Shown here piece after piece: positions 9-27,850 of a stretch of 47,237 nucleotides of DNA (its first letter is position 1; every line of letters begins with the position of its first letter). The notes under the pieces are model-generated. The model was given only the letters and a program-made list of their open reading frames with translations, searched no databases and had not been told where the DNA came from. A program made the translations under genes and the position numbers. The stretch comes from Planctomycetales bacterium (lineage in GTDB: Bacteria; Planctomycetota; Planctomycetia; Pirellulales; S012-138). Location: contig WFOE01000042.1 of the NCBI GenBank assembly GCA_015488215.1, positions 1 through 47,237 of the forward strand, read 5' to 3'.

Positions 9-240
9 AGCAAGAGCAAACGCTGATTCTTGGAAACGGCGAGCCGCCGACTTCAGTCGGCGGAGGACGGACGGCCGTCGGCCACTGGGAGCTTCCGCTC
101 CCGTGCAAGAACAAACGCCGATACTCGCAATCGGCGAGCCGGGAGCTTTAGCTCCCGGAGAAAAACGAGCAAAACAAGCGGCTACGAACTACCTCCCCGG
201 ACTAAAGTCCGGGGCTCGCCTGTGCAAGAACAAATGTAAC
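9..240 (+). repeat. Composite intergenic repeat locus R1 (upstream of nuoF)
   Basis: Hairpins CCGCCGACTTCAGTCGGCGG (44-63), GGGAGCTTCCGCTCCC (87-102), CCGGGAGCTTTAGCTCCCGG (139-158), CCCCGGACTAAAGTCCGGGG (195-214); GGCGAGCC...GGCTCGCC boundaries. Confidence 0.9.
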
Positions 241-1754: not shown

Positions 1755-1945
1755 GTTTGCGGCTTGCGACCTGCGCCGTGCGACTTGCGCCGGGAGCTTC
1801 CGCTCCGGAGCAAGAACCAACGTAGCAACAGACGATAAAACGGCGAGCCGGGAGCTTTAGCTCCCGGAGACAAACGAGCAAAACAAGCGACTACGAATGA
1901 CCTCCCCGGACTAAAGTCCGGGGCTCGCCAGTGCCATATAAACCA
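1755..1945 (+). repeat. Composite intergenic repeat locus R2 (nuoF/nuoG gap)
   Basis: 7-bp array GTTTGCG GCTTGCG ACCTGCG CCGTGCG ACTTGCG (1755-1789), GGAGCTTCCGCTCC (1793-1806), hairpins 1848-1867 and 1904-1923. Confidence 0.9.
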
Positions 1946-3709: not shown

Positions 3710-3712
3710 GGT

Positions 3713-4085
3713 CGGCTTGCGACTTGCGGCTTGCGACTTGCGCCGGGAGCTGCCGCTCCAAGAGGCTTGGAGGCGTGGGGGCTTGGAGGCTTGTGGGGAG
3801 GAGCTTCCGCTCCACTGTAAGAACAAACGCAACAATACAAAACGGCGAGCCGCCGACTTCAGTCGGCGGAGGGCGGCGCGGCCGCCAGCGACTAGGTGCT
3901 TCCGCACCAAAGCAAGAACCAACACAACACCACCAAACGGCGAGCCGGGAGCTTTAGCTCCCGGAGAAAAACGAGCAAAACAAGCGGCTACGAACAACCT
4001 CTCCGGACTAAAGTCCGGGGCTCGCCAGTGCCAGAACAAACGCGAGCCACACAAACGGCCAGCCGCGAGCGTTAACTGGCGGAGC
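3713..4085 (+). repeat. Composite intergenic repeat locus R3 (nuoG/nuoH gap)
   Basis: 7-bp array 3715-3742, 8-bp array 3764-3795, hairpins 3850-3869, 3895-3908, 3945-3964, 4003-4018. Confidence 0.9.
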
Positions 4086-4133
4086 TAAACCGACGCGGAT
4101 TCGCAAAGAGTGTTCCCCAACCCAAGAACCGCC

Positions 4134-5336
4134 ATGACTGCCTTGCTTGTCAAATCGGTTATTTTACTGGGCGGGCTGCTCACCGCGGTGGCCTACCTGG
4201 TGCTGCTGGAACGCAAGGTGGCCGCCTGGATTCAGGACCGCCGCGGGCCGAACCGGGTGGGCATCCCCTTTACCAAAATCCGCCTGTTCGGGCTGGGGCA
4301 GCCGATTGCCGACGGGCTGAAGTTCTTGTTCAAGGAAGAATACACCCCGGGGCACGTGGATCGGGCCATGTACACGCTGGCCCCCCTGGTCATCTTCACC
4401 GCCGCGCTGGCCACCTTCGCGGTAATTCCGTTTGGGCACGTCGTGCCCGTGGGCGGAAAAGCCGAGCCGTTGGTGGTGGCTCCCGGCGTGGATGTGGGCA
4501 TCCTGTACGTGTTCGCCGTCTCCAGCATCGCCGTCTATGGGGTAATCCTGGGCGGCTGGGCCAGCGACAACAAGTACAGCTTCCTGGGAGCGATGCGCAG
4601 CAGCGCCCAGCTGATTGCCTACGAAATCCCCCTGGGCCTGGGCATCCTGGGCGTGGTGCTTCTGACCGGCACGCTGCGGCTGGACGGAATGATCGAGCTT
4701 CAGGCCCAAAGCGGCGTGTGGCTGCTGCTGGTGCAGCCGGTGGGCTTTCTGGTGTTCGCCGTGGCCGCCTGCGCCGAAGCGGCCCGGCTCCCTTTTGACC
4801 TGCTGGAGTGCGAGCAGGAACTGGTCGGCGGCTACCACACCGAATACACCGGCATGAAGATGGCCATGTACGCCCTAGGCGAGTTCCTGCACATGCTCAC
4901 CGCCAGCGTGCTCATCGTGGTGCTGTACCTGGGCGGATGGCACTTCTGGGGCCTGACCGGCACCGGGACGGAAGTGGGCTGGGGAACCGCCCTGCTCCGC
5001 GTGGCCGTCTTTTGGGCCAAGGTGATGCTGGTGGTGCTGGGCTTCATGATTATCCGCTGGAGCTGGCCCCGGTTCCGTTTCGACCAGTTGATGAACCTGG
5101 CCTGGAAAGTGATGGTCCCGCTGGGACTTGTCAACCTAGTGGCCACGGCCGTGCTGATGGAGTTCTGGCCCCGGGCCTTGACGGAACACCCGTGGGCCAC
5201 CGCCGGGGCGATGTGGGCCCTGGCCCTGGGCACCGTGGGGCTTTGGGCCGCGCTGAGCCCGGTCGGTTCCCAGTCCCAGGCCCGTCGGGGACCGGACGAG
5301 TTCTCCATGCGCCGCGTGGAAACGCCCGCCGCCTGA
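4134..5336 (+). CDS. nuoH: NADH-quinone oxidoreductase subunit H
   Basis: LLERKVAAWIQDRRGPNRVG, ARLPFDLLECEQELVGGYHTEYTGMK signatures; ATG at 4134 (GTG at 4110 possible). Confidence 0.95.
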   Translation: MTALLVKSVILLGGLLTAVAYLVLLERKVAAWIQDRRGPNRVGIPFTKIRLFGLGQPIADGLKFLFKEEYTPGHVDRAMYTLAPLVIFTAALATFAVIPFGHVVPVGGKAEPLVVAPGVDVGILYVFAVSSIAVYGVILGGWASDNKYSFLGAMRSSAQLIAYEIPLGLGILGVVLLTGTLRLDGMIELQAQSGVWLLLVQPVGFLVFAVAACAEAARLPFDLLECEQELVGGYHTEYTGMKMAMYALGEFLHMLTASVLIVVLYLGGWHFWGLTGTGTEVGWGTALLRVAVFWAKVMLVVLGFMIIRWSWPRFRFDQLMNLAWKVMVPLGLVNLVATAVLMEFWPRALTEHPWATAGAMWALALGTVGLWAALSPVGSQSQARRGPDEFSMRRVETPAA

Positions 5337-5359
5337 AAACTCGCAAAAGGCCAATTGCC

Positions 5360-5908
5360 ATGAAACCAGACGATCCTGCCATCCGTTGGGTCAAGCCGCC
5401 GGAACTGGGACTGACGGGCCGCATGTACCTGCCGCTGGTGTTGCAGGGGGTTACGACCACGGTGCGCCACCTGTTTTCGCCCAAGGTGACCCAGGAATAT
5501 CCCGAGGTGGAGCCCCCGATTGGCAACCCGCTCATCTACCGCGGCGTGCATCGGCTCAACCGGGACGAACAAGGTCGGGTCAAGTGCGTGGCCTGTTTCC
5601 TCTGCGCCACGGCCTGTCCGGCCCACTGTATCGACATCGTGGCGGCCGAAAGCCCCTGGCCGGATCGGGACAAGTACCCGGAAAGCTTCGTCATCGACGA
5701 GCTGCGCTGCATCTACTGCGGCATGTGCGAGGAAGCCTGCCCGGTGGACGCCATCGAGCTGACTAGCCTTTACAACCTGACGGGCCGCAGCCGCGAGGAG
5801 ATGTTTTTCGACAAGGAGAAACTGCTGAGCGTTTACGACCAGACCAAAGACCGGGAACCCTCGGCCATGGAGCGGCAGCAACAAGCCGCCGAGGACCAGC
5901 AAAAATGA
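5360..5908 (+). CDS. nuoI: NADH-quinone oxidoreductase subunit I (2x[4Fe-4S])
   Basis: CVACFLCATACPAHCI and CIYCGMCEEACPVDAIEL ferredoxin motifs. Confidence 0.95.
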   Translation: MKPDDPAIRWVKPPELGLTGRMYLPLVLQGVTTTVRHLFSPKVTQEYPEVEPPIGNPLIYRGVHRLNRDEQGRVKCVACFLCATACPAHCIDIVAAESPWPDRDKYPESFVIDELRCIYCGMCEEACPVDAIELTSLYNLTGRSREEMFFDKEKLLSVYDQTKDREPSAMERQQQAAEDQQK

Positions 5909-6504
5909 TGCGGCTTGCGACTTGCGCCGTGCGCGAGGAGCTTCCGCAACAAAGGGCGTGGAGGCTTGGGGGCTTGGAGGCTTGGGGAGGAGCTTCCGCT
6001 CCGGAGCAAGAACCAACGTAACCGCAACAATACAAAACGGCGAGCCGGGGACTTCAGTCCCCGGAGGCGGCACGGCCGCCAGCGACTAGGTGCTTCCGCA
6101 CCAGAGCAAGAACAAACACAACACCACCAAACGGCGAGCCGGGAGCTTTGCTCCCGGAGAAAAACGAGCAGAACAAGCGGCGAGGAACAACCTTCCCGGA
6201 CTAAAGTCCGGGGCTCGCCACTGCCAGAACAAACGCAAGTACGCCAACGGTAAGTACACCTACACTAACGGCGACCCGCCGACTTCAGTCGGCGGAGAAA
6301 AACCAAGAGAAGACGCTAACTTGCCGAACCGTTCCGCAAGTTCACGCTTGCGGCTCGCCCAAGAACGAGAGCAGACGTTGACCTTCGCAAAAGCGGAAGG
6401 ACACCGAACGGGAAACCACTGCCACCTTCAGTAACAACGCAAACACAAAAACCGGCGTTTTTCCTGCCCTGCCCAAGACCCAAGACACAAGTCCCAAGAC
6501 CACC
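5909..6504 (+). repeat. Composite intergenic repeat locus R4 (nuoI/nuoJ gap, about 596 bp)
   Basis: 7-bp array starting at the nuoI stop, 8-bp array 5955-5986, hairpins 6045-6064, 6089-6102, 6139-6157, 6195-6212, 6276-6295, 6334-6353, CCAAGAC heptamers 6473-6500. Confidence 0.92.
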
Positions 6505-7260
6505 ATGACCACTTGGCTGATTGTCGGAGCTATTGTGCTGGGGGCCGTGGCCCTGTGGCTGCTGCTGCCCCGGGGCCGCAAGGCCGGACGCCGCCTGGGC
6601 GCGGTGCTGGGCGCCATCGCGCTGGGAATGTTGCTGGCCACGGTGCCCCCGTTGGGCGGCTGGTTCACCCAGGGGTTGTTCTGGCTGCTGGCGGGACTGA
6701 CAATCGCTTCGGCCGCCTGTACCGTGTCGTTTCGCAATCCGGTGTATTGTGCCGTGTGGTTCGGGCTCACGCTGTTTGGCACAGCGGGGCTGTTGTTTTT
6801 CCAAGGGGCGCAATTCCTGGGGGCGGCCACCATCATCATTTATGCCGGGGCCATCCTGGTTACGCTGTTGTTCGTGCTGATGCTGGCCAATCCGCGCGGC
6901 CAGGCCGCTTACGACCGCCGGGCGTGGGAAGCCCCCCTGGCGGCCACCGTGGGCGTGGTGCTGTTGGGGCTTTTCTCCACCGGGTTTTTTTCCACACTGA
7001 AGGCCATGCCGCAGCAGACCCCGGCCCAGGTCGCCGCCGAGAAGCGGCAGCCGCCGGGAAAATACGCCGTGTCGGCCCTGGGGGCGGAGCTTTTCTCGCG
7101 GCACCTGGTGGCCGTGGAGGTGGCCGGCACGCTGCTGCTGGCCGCCCTGGCCGGAGCGGTGGCCGTGGTGGCCCAACACGCTCAGCCCGGCCAGGTAATC
7201 CCCCGGCCTGAAGGGACCGTGCCCCCTGCCCGAGAACCCAACGAGGTAACCGTGCGATGA
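6505..7260 (+). CDS. nuoJ: NADH-quinone oxidoreductase subunit J
   Basis: Hydrophobic; NPVYCAVWFGLTLFGTAGLLFFQGAQFLGAATIIIYAGAILVTLLFVLML; overlaps nuoK by ATGA. Confidence 0.93.
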   Translation: MTTWLIVGAIVLGAVALWLLLPRGRKAGRRLGAVLGAIALGMLLATVPPLGGWFTQGLFWLLAGLTIASAACTVSFRNPVYCAVWFGLTLFGTAGLLFFQGAQFLGAATIIIYAGAILVTLLFVLMLANPRGQAAYDRRAWEAPLAATVGVVLLGLFSTGFFSTLKAMPQQTPAQVAAEKRQPPGKYAVSALGAELFSRHLVAVEVAGTLLLAALAGAVAVVAQHAQPGQVIPRPEGTVPPAREPNEVTVR

Positions 7261-9837: not shown

Positions 9838-10143
9838 GGGCGGCACGGCCGCCAGCGACTAGGTGCTTCCGCACCAGTGCAAGAACAAACGTGATAACAA
9901 ACGGCACAACAGCGAGCCGCCGACTTCAGTCGGCGGAGAGAAACCAAAAGAAAATGCTGATTTACCGAACCGCTCCGCAAGCTCACGCTTGCGGCTCGCC
10001 CAAGAACGAGAGCAAACGTCGACGTTGGCAAAAACGGCAAAAACACCGAACCGGAAACAACCGCAACCTTCGGTAGCGACGCAAACACGAAAAGTGGTGT
10101 TTTTCCTGCCCTGCCCAAGACCCAAGACACAAGACCCAAGACC
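9838..10143 (+). repeat. Composite intergenic repeat locus R5 (nuoL/nuoM gap)
   Basis: Hairpins 9862-9875, 9917-9936, 9975-9994; CCAAGAC heptamer array 10115-10142 ends 1 bp before nuoM ATG. Confidence 0.92.
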
Positions 10144-11856
10144 ATGTCCACCTGGTTGATTGTTTCGCTGGCGTTGCCGCTGCTGGGGGCCGCCCTGGCC
10201 GCCGGCGTGGCCGCGGCCGGGTACCGCGTCGTGCGCTGCGTGGCCCTGGGCACCACGTTGCTTACGCTGCTGGTGGCCGGGTACCTGGCTTTTCAGTTTC
10301 CGGCCGACTCCCCGGCCCGAATCACCCTGGAAGGTGCCCCCCAGGCGGAACCCTTCGCGTTGTGGGAAGCCCAATGGTTCGGCTCGCCCGAAGGGCCGGT
10401 GGACATCCGTTTTTCGCTGGGCCTGGACGGGCTGGGCGTGTGGCTCTACGCCCTCAGCGCGCTGCTGATGGTGACGGCCGTGCTGATTTCCTGGGAGACG
10501 ATTACCCATCGGCCCGGCACGTATTACGCGCTGCTGTTGCTACTGGAAACCGGGCTGCTGGGCGTGTTCACCGCTCGGGACATTCTGCTGTTCTACGTGT
10601 TTTTCGAGTTCACGTTGCTGCCGCTTTTCTTTCTGATTGGCATCTGGGGGCACGAGGAGCGGCGCTACGCGGCGGTGAAGTTTTTCCTCTACACGCTGGC
10701 CGGCAGCGTGCTTACGTTTTTGGGGCTGCTGGCCATTGCCTGGTGGTGTGCTTCGCAGCATCCGCAGGGGGTGCTCAGCTTCTATCTGCCAACGATTGAA
10801 GAACAACTGCGCCGCACCCCCTTGCCGGCGGAGTTGCAGTGGTGGCTGTTCCTGGCCCTGTTTGCCGGGTTTGCGGTCAAAGTGCCGCTGTGGCCGTTTC
10901 ACACCTGGTTGCCGCTTGCCCACGTAGAAGCTCCCACGGCCGGCAGCGTGTTGCTGGCCGGGGTGTTGTTGAAGGTGGGCTCTTACGGCTTTGTGCGTTT
11001 CTGCCTGCCGCTTTTGCCGGCCGGTTCGGCCGCCTGGATGCCCTGGGTGATGTGGCTGGCCGTGGTGGGCATCCTCTACGCAGCGCTGGTGGCGCTGGTG
11101 CAGTGGGACATCAAGCGGCTGATTGCCTACAGCAGCGTAAGCCACCTGGGCTTTTGCATGCTGGGCGTGTTTGCCATGAACCGGCCCGGCCTGGAAGGCG
11201 GCGTGTTGCAGATGGTCAACCACGGGTTGTCCACCGCCGGGCTGTTCTCCGTGGTGGGCATGATTTACGCCCGCTACCACACGCGGCACATGGCCGAACT
11301 GGGCGGACTGGCCCGACGGCTGCCCCTGCTGAGCACCGTGTTTCTGGTGCTGGTGCTCTCCAGCATCGGGCTGCCCGGGCTCAACGGGTTTGCCGGGGAG
11401 TTTCTCATCCTGGCCGGGGCGTTCAACCGCGGCTGGACCGCTCCGGCGGCTTACGCCGGCCAGTTGTACCTGCTGGCCGCGCTGGCCACGTTGGGCGTGG
11501 TGCTGGGGGCCTGGTACATGCTGGGCATGGTCCGCCAGGTGCTGTTCGGCCCGTTGCAGGAGCCGGTTCGGGAAGAGGGCGAGCCGCACCCGGCGGTGCG
11601 CGACTTGCGCTGGTACGAGCTGGGCGCCGTGGCCCCGCTGCTGGTGTTCGTGCTCTGGATTGGCTTGCAGCCGGGGTTCTTCTTGCAGCGGATGCACTCC
11701 GCACTGCTGCCGCTTGCCGACCGGGCGGCGGTGAGCTATTACCGCAGCTACGCCCAGGCCCATTTGCCGGCAAAGAACAAGGAACAAAAGGGACAACCCC
11801 AAGGCGAGAAACAACCCCGTGCCGAAGAGGCCCCCCCGGCCGACCCGGCGCGGTGA
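10144..11856 (+). CDS. nuoM: NADH-quinone oxidoreductase subunit M
   Basis: FYVFFEFTLLPLFFLIGIWG, KVPLWPFHTWLPLAHVEAPTAGSVLLAGVLLKVGSYG, DIKRLIAYSSVSHLGF. Confidence 0.96.
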   Translation: MSTWLIVSLALPLLGAALAAGVAAAGYRVVRCVALGTTLLTLLVAGYLAFQFPADSPARITLEGAPQAEPFALWEAQWFGSPEGPVDIRFSLGLDGLGVWLYALSALLMVTAVLISWETITHRPGTYYALLLLLETGLLGVFTARDILLFYVFFEFTLLPLFFLIGIWGHEERRYAAVKFFLYTLAGSVLTFLGLLAIAWWCASQHPQGVLSFYLPTIEEQLRRTPLPAELQWWLFLALFAGFAVKVPLWPFHTWLPLAHVEAPTAGSVLLAGVLLKVGSYGFVRFCLPLLPAGSAAWMPWVMWLAVVGILYAALVALVQWDIKRLIAYSSVSHLGFCMLGVFAMNRPGLEGGVLQMVNHGLSTAGLFSVVGMIYARYHTRHMAELGGLARRLPLLSTVFLVLVLSSIGLPGLNGFAGEFLILAGAFNRGWTAPAAYAGQLYLLAALATLGVVLGAWYMLGMVRQVLFGPLQEPVREEGEPHPAVRDLRWYELGAVAPLLVFVLWIGLQPGFFLQRMHSALLPLADRAAVSYYRSYAQAHLPAKNKEQKGQPQGEKQPRAEEAPPADPAR

Positions 11857-27504: not shown

Positions 27505-27850
27505 CCGAGCGAGCCGCCGACTTCAGCTAGCGGAGGCGGCTCCAGCCGCAGCCACTGGGTGCTTCCGCACCGAGCGGGAATAGGCTTGCGGCTTGCGCCG
27601 TGCGCCTTGCGGAAGGTGCTTCCGCACCAGCGCAAGAATAATCGCCGACTCTTGCAATTCGGCGAGCCGCCGACTTTAGTCGGCGGAGGACGGCGAGCCG
27701 GGAGCTTTAGCTCCCGGAGGACGGCACGGCCGTGGGCGACTGGGTGCTTCCGCACCGATGCAGGAATAGGCGTTTTTTGCAACCGGCCCTCCCCGGACTG
27801 AAGTCCGGGGCTCGCCGCGAAGTCCGCGTCTTGCCGCGAAATCCGGGCTT
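27505..27850 (+). repeat. Composite intergenic repeat locus R10
   Basis: Hairpins 27558-27571, 27615-27628, 27667-27686, 27698-27717, 27743-27756, 27791-27810; 7-bp array 27584-27611. Confidence 0.92.

Follow-up and report, generated by a model that had tools for sequence, protein, structure and literature searches.

We showed that the genomes of an uncultured planctomycete and of a congener contain a family of short, REP/REPIN-like, non-autonomous repeats built on a small set of recurring hairpin stems, and we consider it probable, with moderate confidence, that their hairpins are exchanged as cassettes between copies of the family. Two closely similar clusters of these repeats, R3 and R4, which lie in a respiratory-gene (nuo) cluster, carry different but equally well-paired first hairpins, apparently because the repeats draw on this small stem set, whose members are probably swapped as cassettes. 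The window (the whole stretch of 47,237 nucleotides that was analysed) belongs to the genome referred to as G000; G001 and G002 are two congeners from the same genus, and all three are MAGs. Cassette statistics are based on 1.0 Mb of the 4.29 Mb of G000 and on 0.33 Mb of G002, in contigs picked for carrying cassettes or dimers, and the cassette densities therefore do not represent genome averages.

The cassette is a REP-like hairpin of 28 nt, GGCGAGCC-NNNNN-CTTNAG-N'N'N'N'N'-GGAG, composed of a fixed head (GGCGAGCC), a variable, perfectly paired stem core of 5 bp, a (T/G)TNA loop and a GGAG tail. Exact matches to the pattern GCGAGCC-N4-R-CTTNAG-Y-N4-GGAG number 367 in G000 (181+186), and the reversed control pattern has none there. 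The pattern itself was matched 850 times in G002 and 19 times in G001 (a variation of about 45-fold within one genus), and a further 57 genomes from the family and the order gave no match. A census of the sampled part of G000 in which the loop sequence was left unspecified recovered 193 perfect 8-bp hairpins behind GCGAG. The first base of their loops is T (175/193) or G (18/193), the second is T in 190 and the fourth A in 187, and the third is free. Approximately half of the loops in G002 have G at position 1. Cassettes whose loop is GTNA, and whose tail is often GGTT, form a sister family that is frequent in G002 (L112, L182, L198 and others) and rare in G000.

No cassette of the window lies in a nuo gene (nuoF, nuoG, nuoH and nuoJ were assigned by Pfam); the intergenic location was established for the nuo region. 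An Rfam search of the window gave no match. Intrinsic terminators were considered and rejected: the cassettes occur on both strands within the operon, end in GGAG and carry no T run.

A preliminary description of this DNA had stated that R3 and R4 align nearly base for base, and that the first hairpin carries a double change in its left arm with matching changes in the right arm. Both statements were borne out. The alignment, which runs from CAACAATACAAAACGGCGAGCC to GCCAGAACAAACGC, contains 199 identities in 212 positions, 13 substitutions and two 1-nt indels. Hairpin 1 reads CCGCCGACTTCAGTCGGCGG in R3 and CCGGGGACTTCAGTCCCCGG in R4, so that two base pairs differ, with both sides of each changed. 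The 10 variable arm positions of this hairpin hold four of the 13 substitutions (hypergeometric P = 0.0015, computed before requiring that the four match pairwise). The term “recent duplicate” was too strong, since the copies diverge by about 6%. The features of the nuo region are listed in Table 1, together with a double cassette at 27661-27719.

Table 1. Repeat clusters, cassettes and associated elements of the window
Feature	Position	Strand	Basis
R1, third three-cassette cluster, upstream of nuoF	38..220	+	
R1 cassette, stem GCCGA (as in R3 hairpin 1)	38..65		
R1 cassette, stem GGGAG	133..160		
R1 cassette, stem CCGGA	193..220	-	
R2, convergent pair alone, between nuoF and nuoG, without lead cassette	1842..1929	+	
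R2 cassette, stem GGGAG	1842..1869		
R2 cassette, stem CCGGA	1902..1929	-	
R3, three-cassette repeat cluster between nuoG and nuoH	3830..4043	+	Alignment with R4; Pfam of flanking genes
R3 hairpin 1, lead cassette, stem class GCCGA/TCGGC, loop TTCA	3844..3871	+	
R3 small hairpin GGTGCTTCCGCACC between cassettes 1 and 2 (second hairpin family, A-T/T-A pair flips)	3895..3908	+	
R3 hairpin 2, B cassette of the convergent pair, stem GGGAG/CTCCC, loop TTTA	3939..3966	+	
R3 convergent-pair spacer, 32 nt, homologous among dimers of both species	3967..3998	+	
R3 hairpin 3, A cassette, stem CCGGA/TCCGG	3999..4026	-	
R4, same three-cassette cluster as R3, upstream of nuoJ	6025..6236	+	Alignment with R3
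R4 hairpin 1, lead cassette, swapped stem GGGGA/TCCCC, loop TTCA	6039..6066	+	
R4 hairpin 2, B cassette, stem GGGAG, one loop base deleted	6133..6159	+	
R4 hairpin 3, A cassette, stem CCGGA/TCCGG	6192..6219	-	
Tandem double cassette, GCCGA then GGGAG, 31-bp period, at one lead-cassette site	27661..27719	+	

Since R1 has the stem of R3 at the same place and R2 has no lead cassette, R4 is most simply regarded as the changed copy; its first hairpin, the sole perfect GGGGA among 47 lead cassettes, would then be a replacement of the GCCGA stem that R1 and R3 keep. The direction of this putative swap is read from copies within one genome. The orthologous nuo spacers of the congeners contain no orthologous cassette, those of G001 being short and repeat-free and those of G002 filled with other cassettes and repeats, which indicates rapid turnover of these spacers.

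Other repeats were also observed in this region. Runs of short near-repeats (for example GGCTTGCGACTTGCGGCTTGCG and GGCTTGGAGGCTTGG) lie upstream of the clusters in several spacers (1743-1800, 3712-3800, 5909-6000 and others), and repeats of the CCCAAGACCCAAGACACAAGACCC type (6471-6513 and 10113-10155) are common to the spacer ends before nuoJ and before a gene starting near 10144. A second small hairpin, GGAGCTTCCGCTCC or GGTGCTTCCGCACC, occurs in two matched states in the window (3800-3813 and 3895-3908) and genome-wide; the A-T, T-A and mixed forms number 96, 56 and 13 in the G000 sample and 62, 55 and 13 in G002.

Analysis of the stems revealed a small vocabulary. Among 220 cassettes of G000 (one mismatch each tolerated in head and tail), 184 have perfectly complementary 5-nt arms, whereas random dealing of the right arms gave 43 on average and at most 62. 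Seven classes (CCGGA, GCCGA, GCCAG, GGGAG, GGGGA, CCGAG and GGGAA) cover all 184 perfect stems, and both forms of hairpin 1, in R3 and in R4, are standard classes. The G000 sample contains no private perfect stem, as against 24 cassettes with a single one-sided change. The stem set of G002 overlaps with that of G000; here four perfect stems lie outside the main classes, as against 10 one-sided mutants.

The stem change between R3 and R4 is real, but it is one among many. Cassettes were paired if their 40-nt flanks were at least 80% identical on either side; this gave 23 pairs with different perfect stems and 11 with the same stem in sampled G000, and 11 and 30, respectively, in G002; these pairs have members in common, and the counts are thus not numbers of independent events. 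Stem class in G000 correlates strongly with the loop base (chi-square P = 1.5e-11; z = 10.6), shows no association with the upstream flank (z about -2 to 2.5) and has a weak to moderate association with the downstream flank, which probably reflects in part the role of a cassette as lead or dimer partner. It is thus apparently the hairpin as such that moves. For G002, stem class and loop base are associated when all classes are taken together (P = 3e-4), but no association is seen among non-A cassettes (z = -0.8).

The same picture was obtained for dimers, whose spacers are homologous and in the same orientation in both species, while their stems differ. The B-cassette stem takes six forms in the dimers of G000. 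In a nearest-neighbour test it weakly followed the spacer (13 versus 6.8 expected, P = 0.034), and vertical inheritance of stems is therefore weak but not zero. Three dimers of G002 have an identical 29-nt spacer and B stem (L208 versus L033 and L203), and in these the A stem and the A loop differ together (CCGGA/TTCA in the first, CCGGG/TTTA in the other two).

Individual loci also carry forms that combine two classes. Class-to-class hybrid stems with at least two differences were found three times in each of G000 and G002, where 0.014 and 0.005, respectively, are expected from the one-sided mutation rate. One of them, GGGGA/TCGGC (L120:8347), joins the left arm of R4 to the right arm of R3 in the same lead-cassette context. 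This hybrid is located some 135 bp from the end of its contig, and two others are within about 200 bp of a contig end, so that in these fragmented MAGs assembly chimerism is possible for three of the six; the other three are interior. In a 171-bp tandem array of G002 (L178, copies approximately 95% identical), CACGG, CCGAG and GCCAG/CTCGG occupy the same position, the last having one arm alone exchanged. Moreover, 20 tandem double cassettes a few bases apart were identified, all of them (20/20) with two different stems. The one listed in Table 1 has the arrangement expected half-way through a swap by insertion and deletion: loss of its first cassette would produce a stem swap.

These observations suggest that the entire hairpin, loop included, or in some cases a single arm, may be replaced within homologous loci by that of another copy. 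This could occur in two ways: (i) by recombination or conversion anchored in the common head, loop and tail, or (ii) through a second cassette that inserts next to the resident one, which is then lost. Selection would retain hairpins only if they are perfectly paired, and convergent pairs only if their two stems differ. The joint movement of loop and stem, together with the existence of half-swaps, makes such a mechanism directly testable.

An alternative is ordinary compensatory substitution, in which single bases of an arm mutate, mismatched hairpins are selected out and those that remain give the impression of concerted change. Pairing could plausibly be under selection, given that a stem mismatch cripples cleavage by a group-3 REP transposase (PMC8266576). 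G-T intermediates are present among GGGAA, GGGGA and GGGAG, and the one-pair steps between these three stems may be accounted for equally well by ordinary compensatory mutation. The R3/R4 difference, however, needs two C-G to G-C transversions per arm by way of non-pairing states, and the sole R3/R4 intermediate seen already has both left-arm bases changed. The restricted vocabulary and the lack of private stems do not fit this explanation either, which we regard as unlikely.

About as unlikely is template-directed arm copying, whereby a mutation in one arm is copied to the other at replication (quasipalindrome correction, template switching) in one concerted event. The mechanism is established and yields multi-base compensatory changes (PMC8794818, PMC7202029), and the half-swapped hybrids would be natural substrates for it. 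Its signature, a new perfect stem matching a one-arm mutation, has four candidates in G002, namely the perfect stems outside the main classes, but none in G000, despite 82 possible one-pair neighbours and the 24 one-sided mutants; as the main source of the changes, arm copying is therefore unlikely. It would moreover leave the loop base alone, whereas in G000 this base changes with the stem, and seven recurring stems are not expected from correction in situ. Arm copying could nevertheless act as a second step, repairing or finishing half-swapped stems. Independent insertion of R3 and R4 from different subfamily copies, or splicing of stems in a chimeric assembly, is highly improbable: MAG contigs are repeat-rich and several hybrids lie close to contig ends, but the two clusters are distinguishable by 13 substitutions spread along them, and a second MAG independently shows the same pattern, which also recurs at many sites in the interior of contigs.

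Both module exchange and arm copying had been offered in the preliminary description. The former is supported, as it explains the fixed vocabulary of seven stems, the stem-loop linkage, the hybrids and the double cassettes; the latter, as a source of stems, is not supported by the counts of private perfect stems against one-sided mutants (0 against 24 in G000, 4 against 10 in G002). This calls for caution, since concerted stem changes in repeats may come from cassette exchange and not from slow compensatory evolution or arm copying.

Another feature of the family is the composition of its convergent pairs. Strict convergent dimers number 53 in G000 and 153 in G002, and the two stems were different in every perfect convergent pair sampled (51/51 and 32/32, respectively). 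No same-stem pair was thus found among 83 in the samples of the two species, where 12 to 16 were expected in G000 and 5.5 to 7 in G002. Each convergent pair of G000 has exactly one CCGGA partner, which indicates that common descent of an asymmetric element contributes to this heterodimer rule. The rule nevertheless applies in G002, where neither partner is constant. It is absolute in these samples, and stems change within homologous dimers with the rule intact.

REP dimers are known to prefer two different stems, a preference which, according to a survey of REP families, “has no obvious explanation” (PMC3733652). When folded with DNA parameters, 53 of 75 natural dimers formed both hairpins locally, as against 0 of 75 homodimers constructed in silico, for which the long hairpin was approximately 17 kcal/mol more stable. 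In the predicted fold of the R3 dimer, pairing between the two heads closes a clover; the clover, and not the long hairpin, was proposed by Bertels and Rainey as the form recognised by RAYT (PMC3116915). The folding calculation thus supplies a concrete reason for the heterodimer preference: equal stems are predicted to merge both cassettes into one long hairpin.

The presence of a transposase was also examined. G002, the genome richest in cassettes, was the only one of the three with PF01797 matches, and has several related Y1 transposase-like ORFs. One of these (C494:12619-13227) is bracketed by cassettes, which could be due to chance in such a cassette-rich genome. In G000 (96.5% complete) no Y1 transposase was found with the Pfam model PF01797 or with the G002 protein as query, and PF01797 had no match in G001. 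We also propose, as a rather unlikely extension of cassette exchange, a REPIN-like element with an interchangeable stem slot. An HUH transposase whose recognition is confined to the head, the perfect pairing and the TTNA loop would insert or exchange stem cassettes at existing elements, the heterodimer rule would remove long-palindrome combinations, and a small stem vocabulary would be actively shuffled.

Several known systems resemble the repeats described here. The group-3 REP transposase of Marinomonas requires T, T and A in the loop and leaves the third base free; stem sequence matters little to this enzyme, stem mismatch seriously lowers cleavage, and cleavage was also lowered by a GTTA loop (PMC8266576). 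Like its REP-Mb substrates, the cassettes of G000 are small perfect palindromes with a T-T-N-A loop, a free third base and a largely free stem sequence. This likeness has its limits, as the cassettes lack the GTAG motif and part of the family has GTNA loops. The fixed T and A, the free third loop base and the perfect but variable stem point to TnpA-REP-like recognition on single-stranded DNA as the most likely reason why pairing is kept while the stem varies.

With the GTAG and CGTC REP superfamilies (PMC3733652) the cassettes share the form of short palindromes that recur between genes in hundreds of copies, the division into subfamilies whose stem bases are alternative but complementary, and convergent dimers, which in many REP families are heterodimers. 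They differ in that, at homologous loci, alternative stems may diverge in as many as four of their five pairs and that heterodimers are exclusive. Moreover, the conserved 5' flank is GGCGAG, with neither a GTAG-type nor a CGTC tetranucleotide 5' of the stem, and we therefore claim no formal membership in those superfamilies.

REPINs with RAYT transposases (PMC3116915) likewise consist of two inverted REPs and a short spacer as a common unit with many copies per genome, for which long-hairpin and clover folds are both possible. Unlike the dimers described here, however, REPINs are symmetrical doublets that fold as one long hairpin, a form which is disfavoured when the two stems always differ, and no RAYT was found in G000. 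Finally, template-switch (quasipalindrome) mutations also change both arms of a hairpin in concert (PMC8794818, PMC7202029), but they create new perfect stems in situ, whereas the stems described here belong to a fixed repertoire and are accompanied, in G000, by their loop base.
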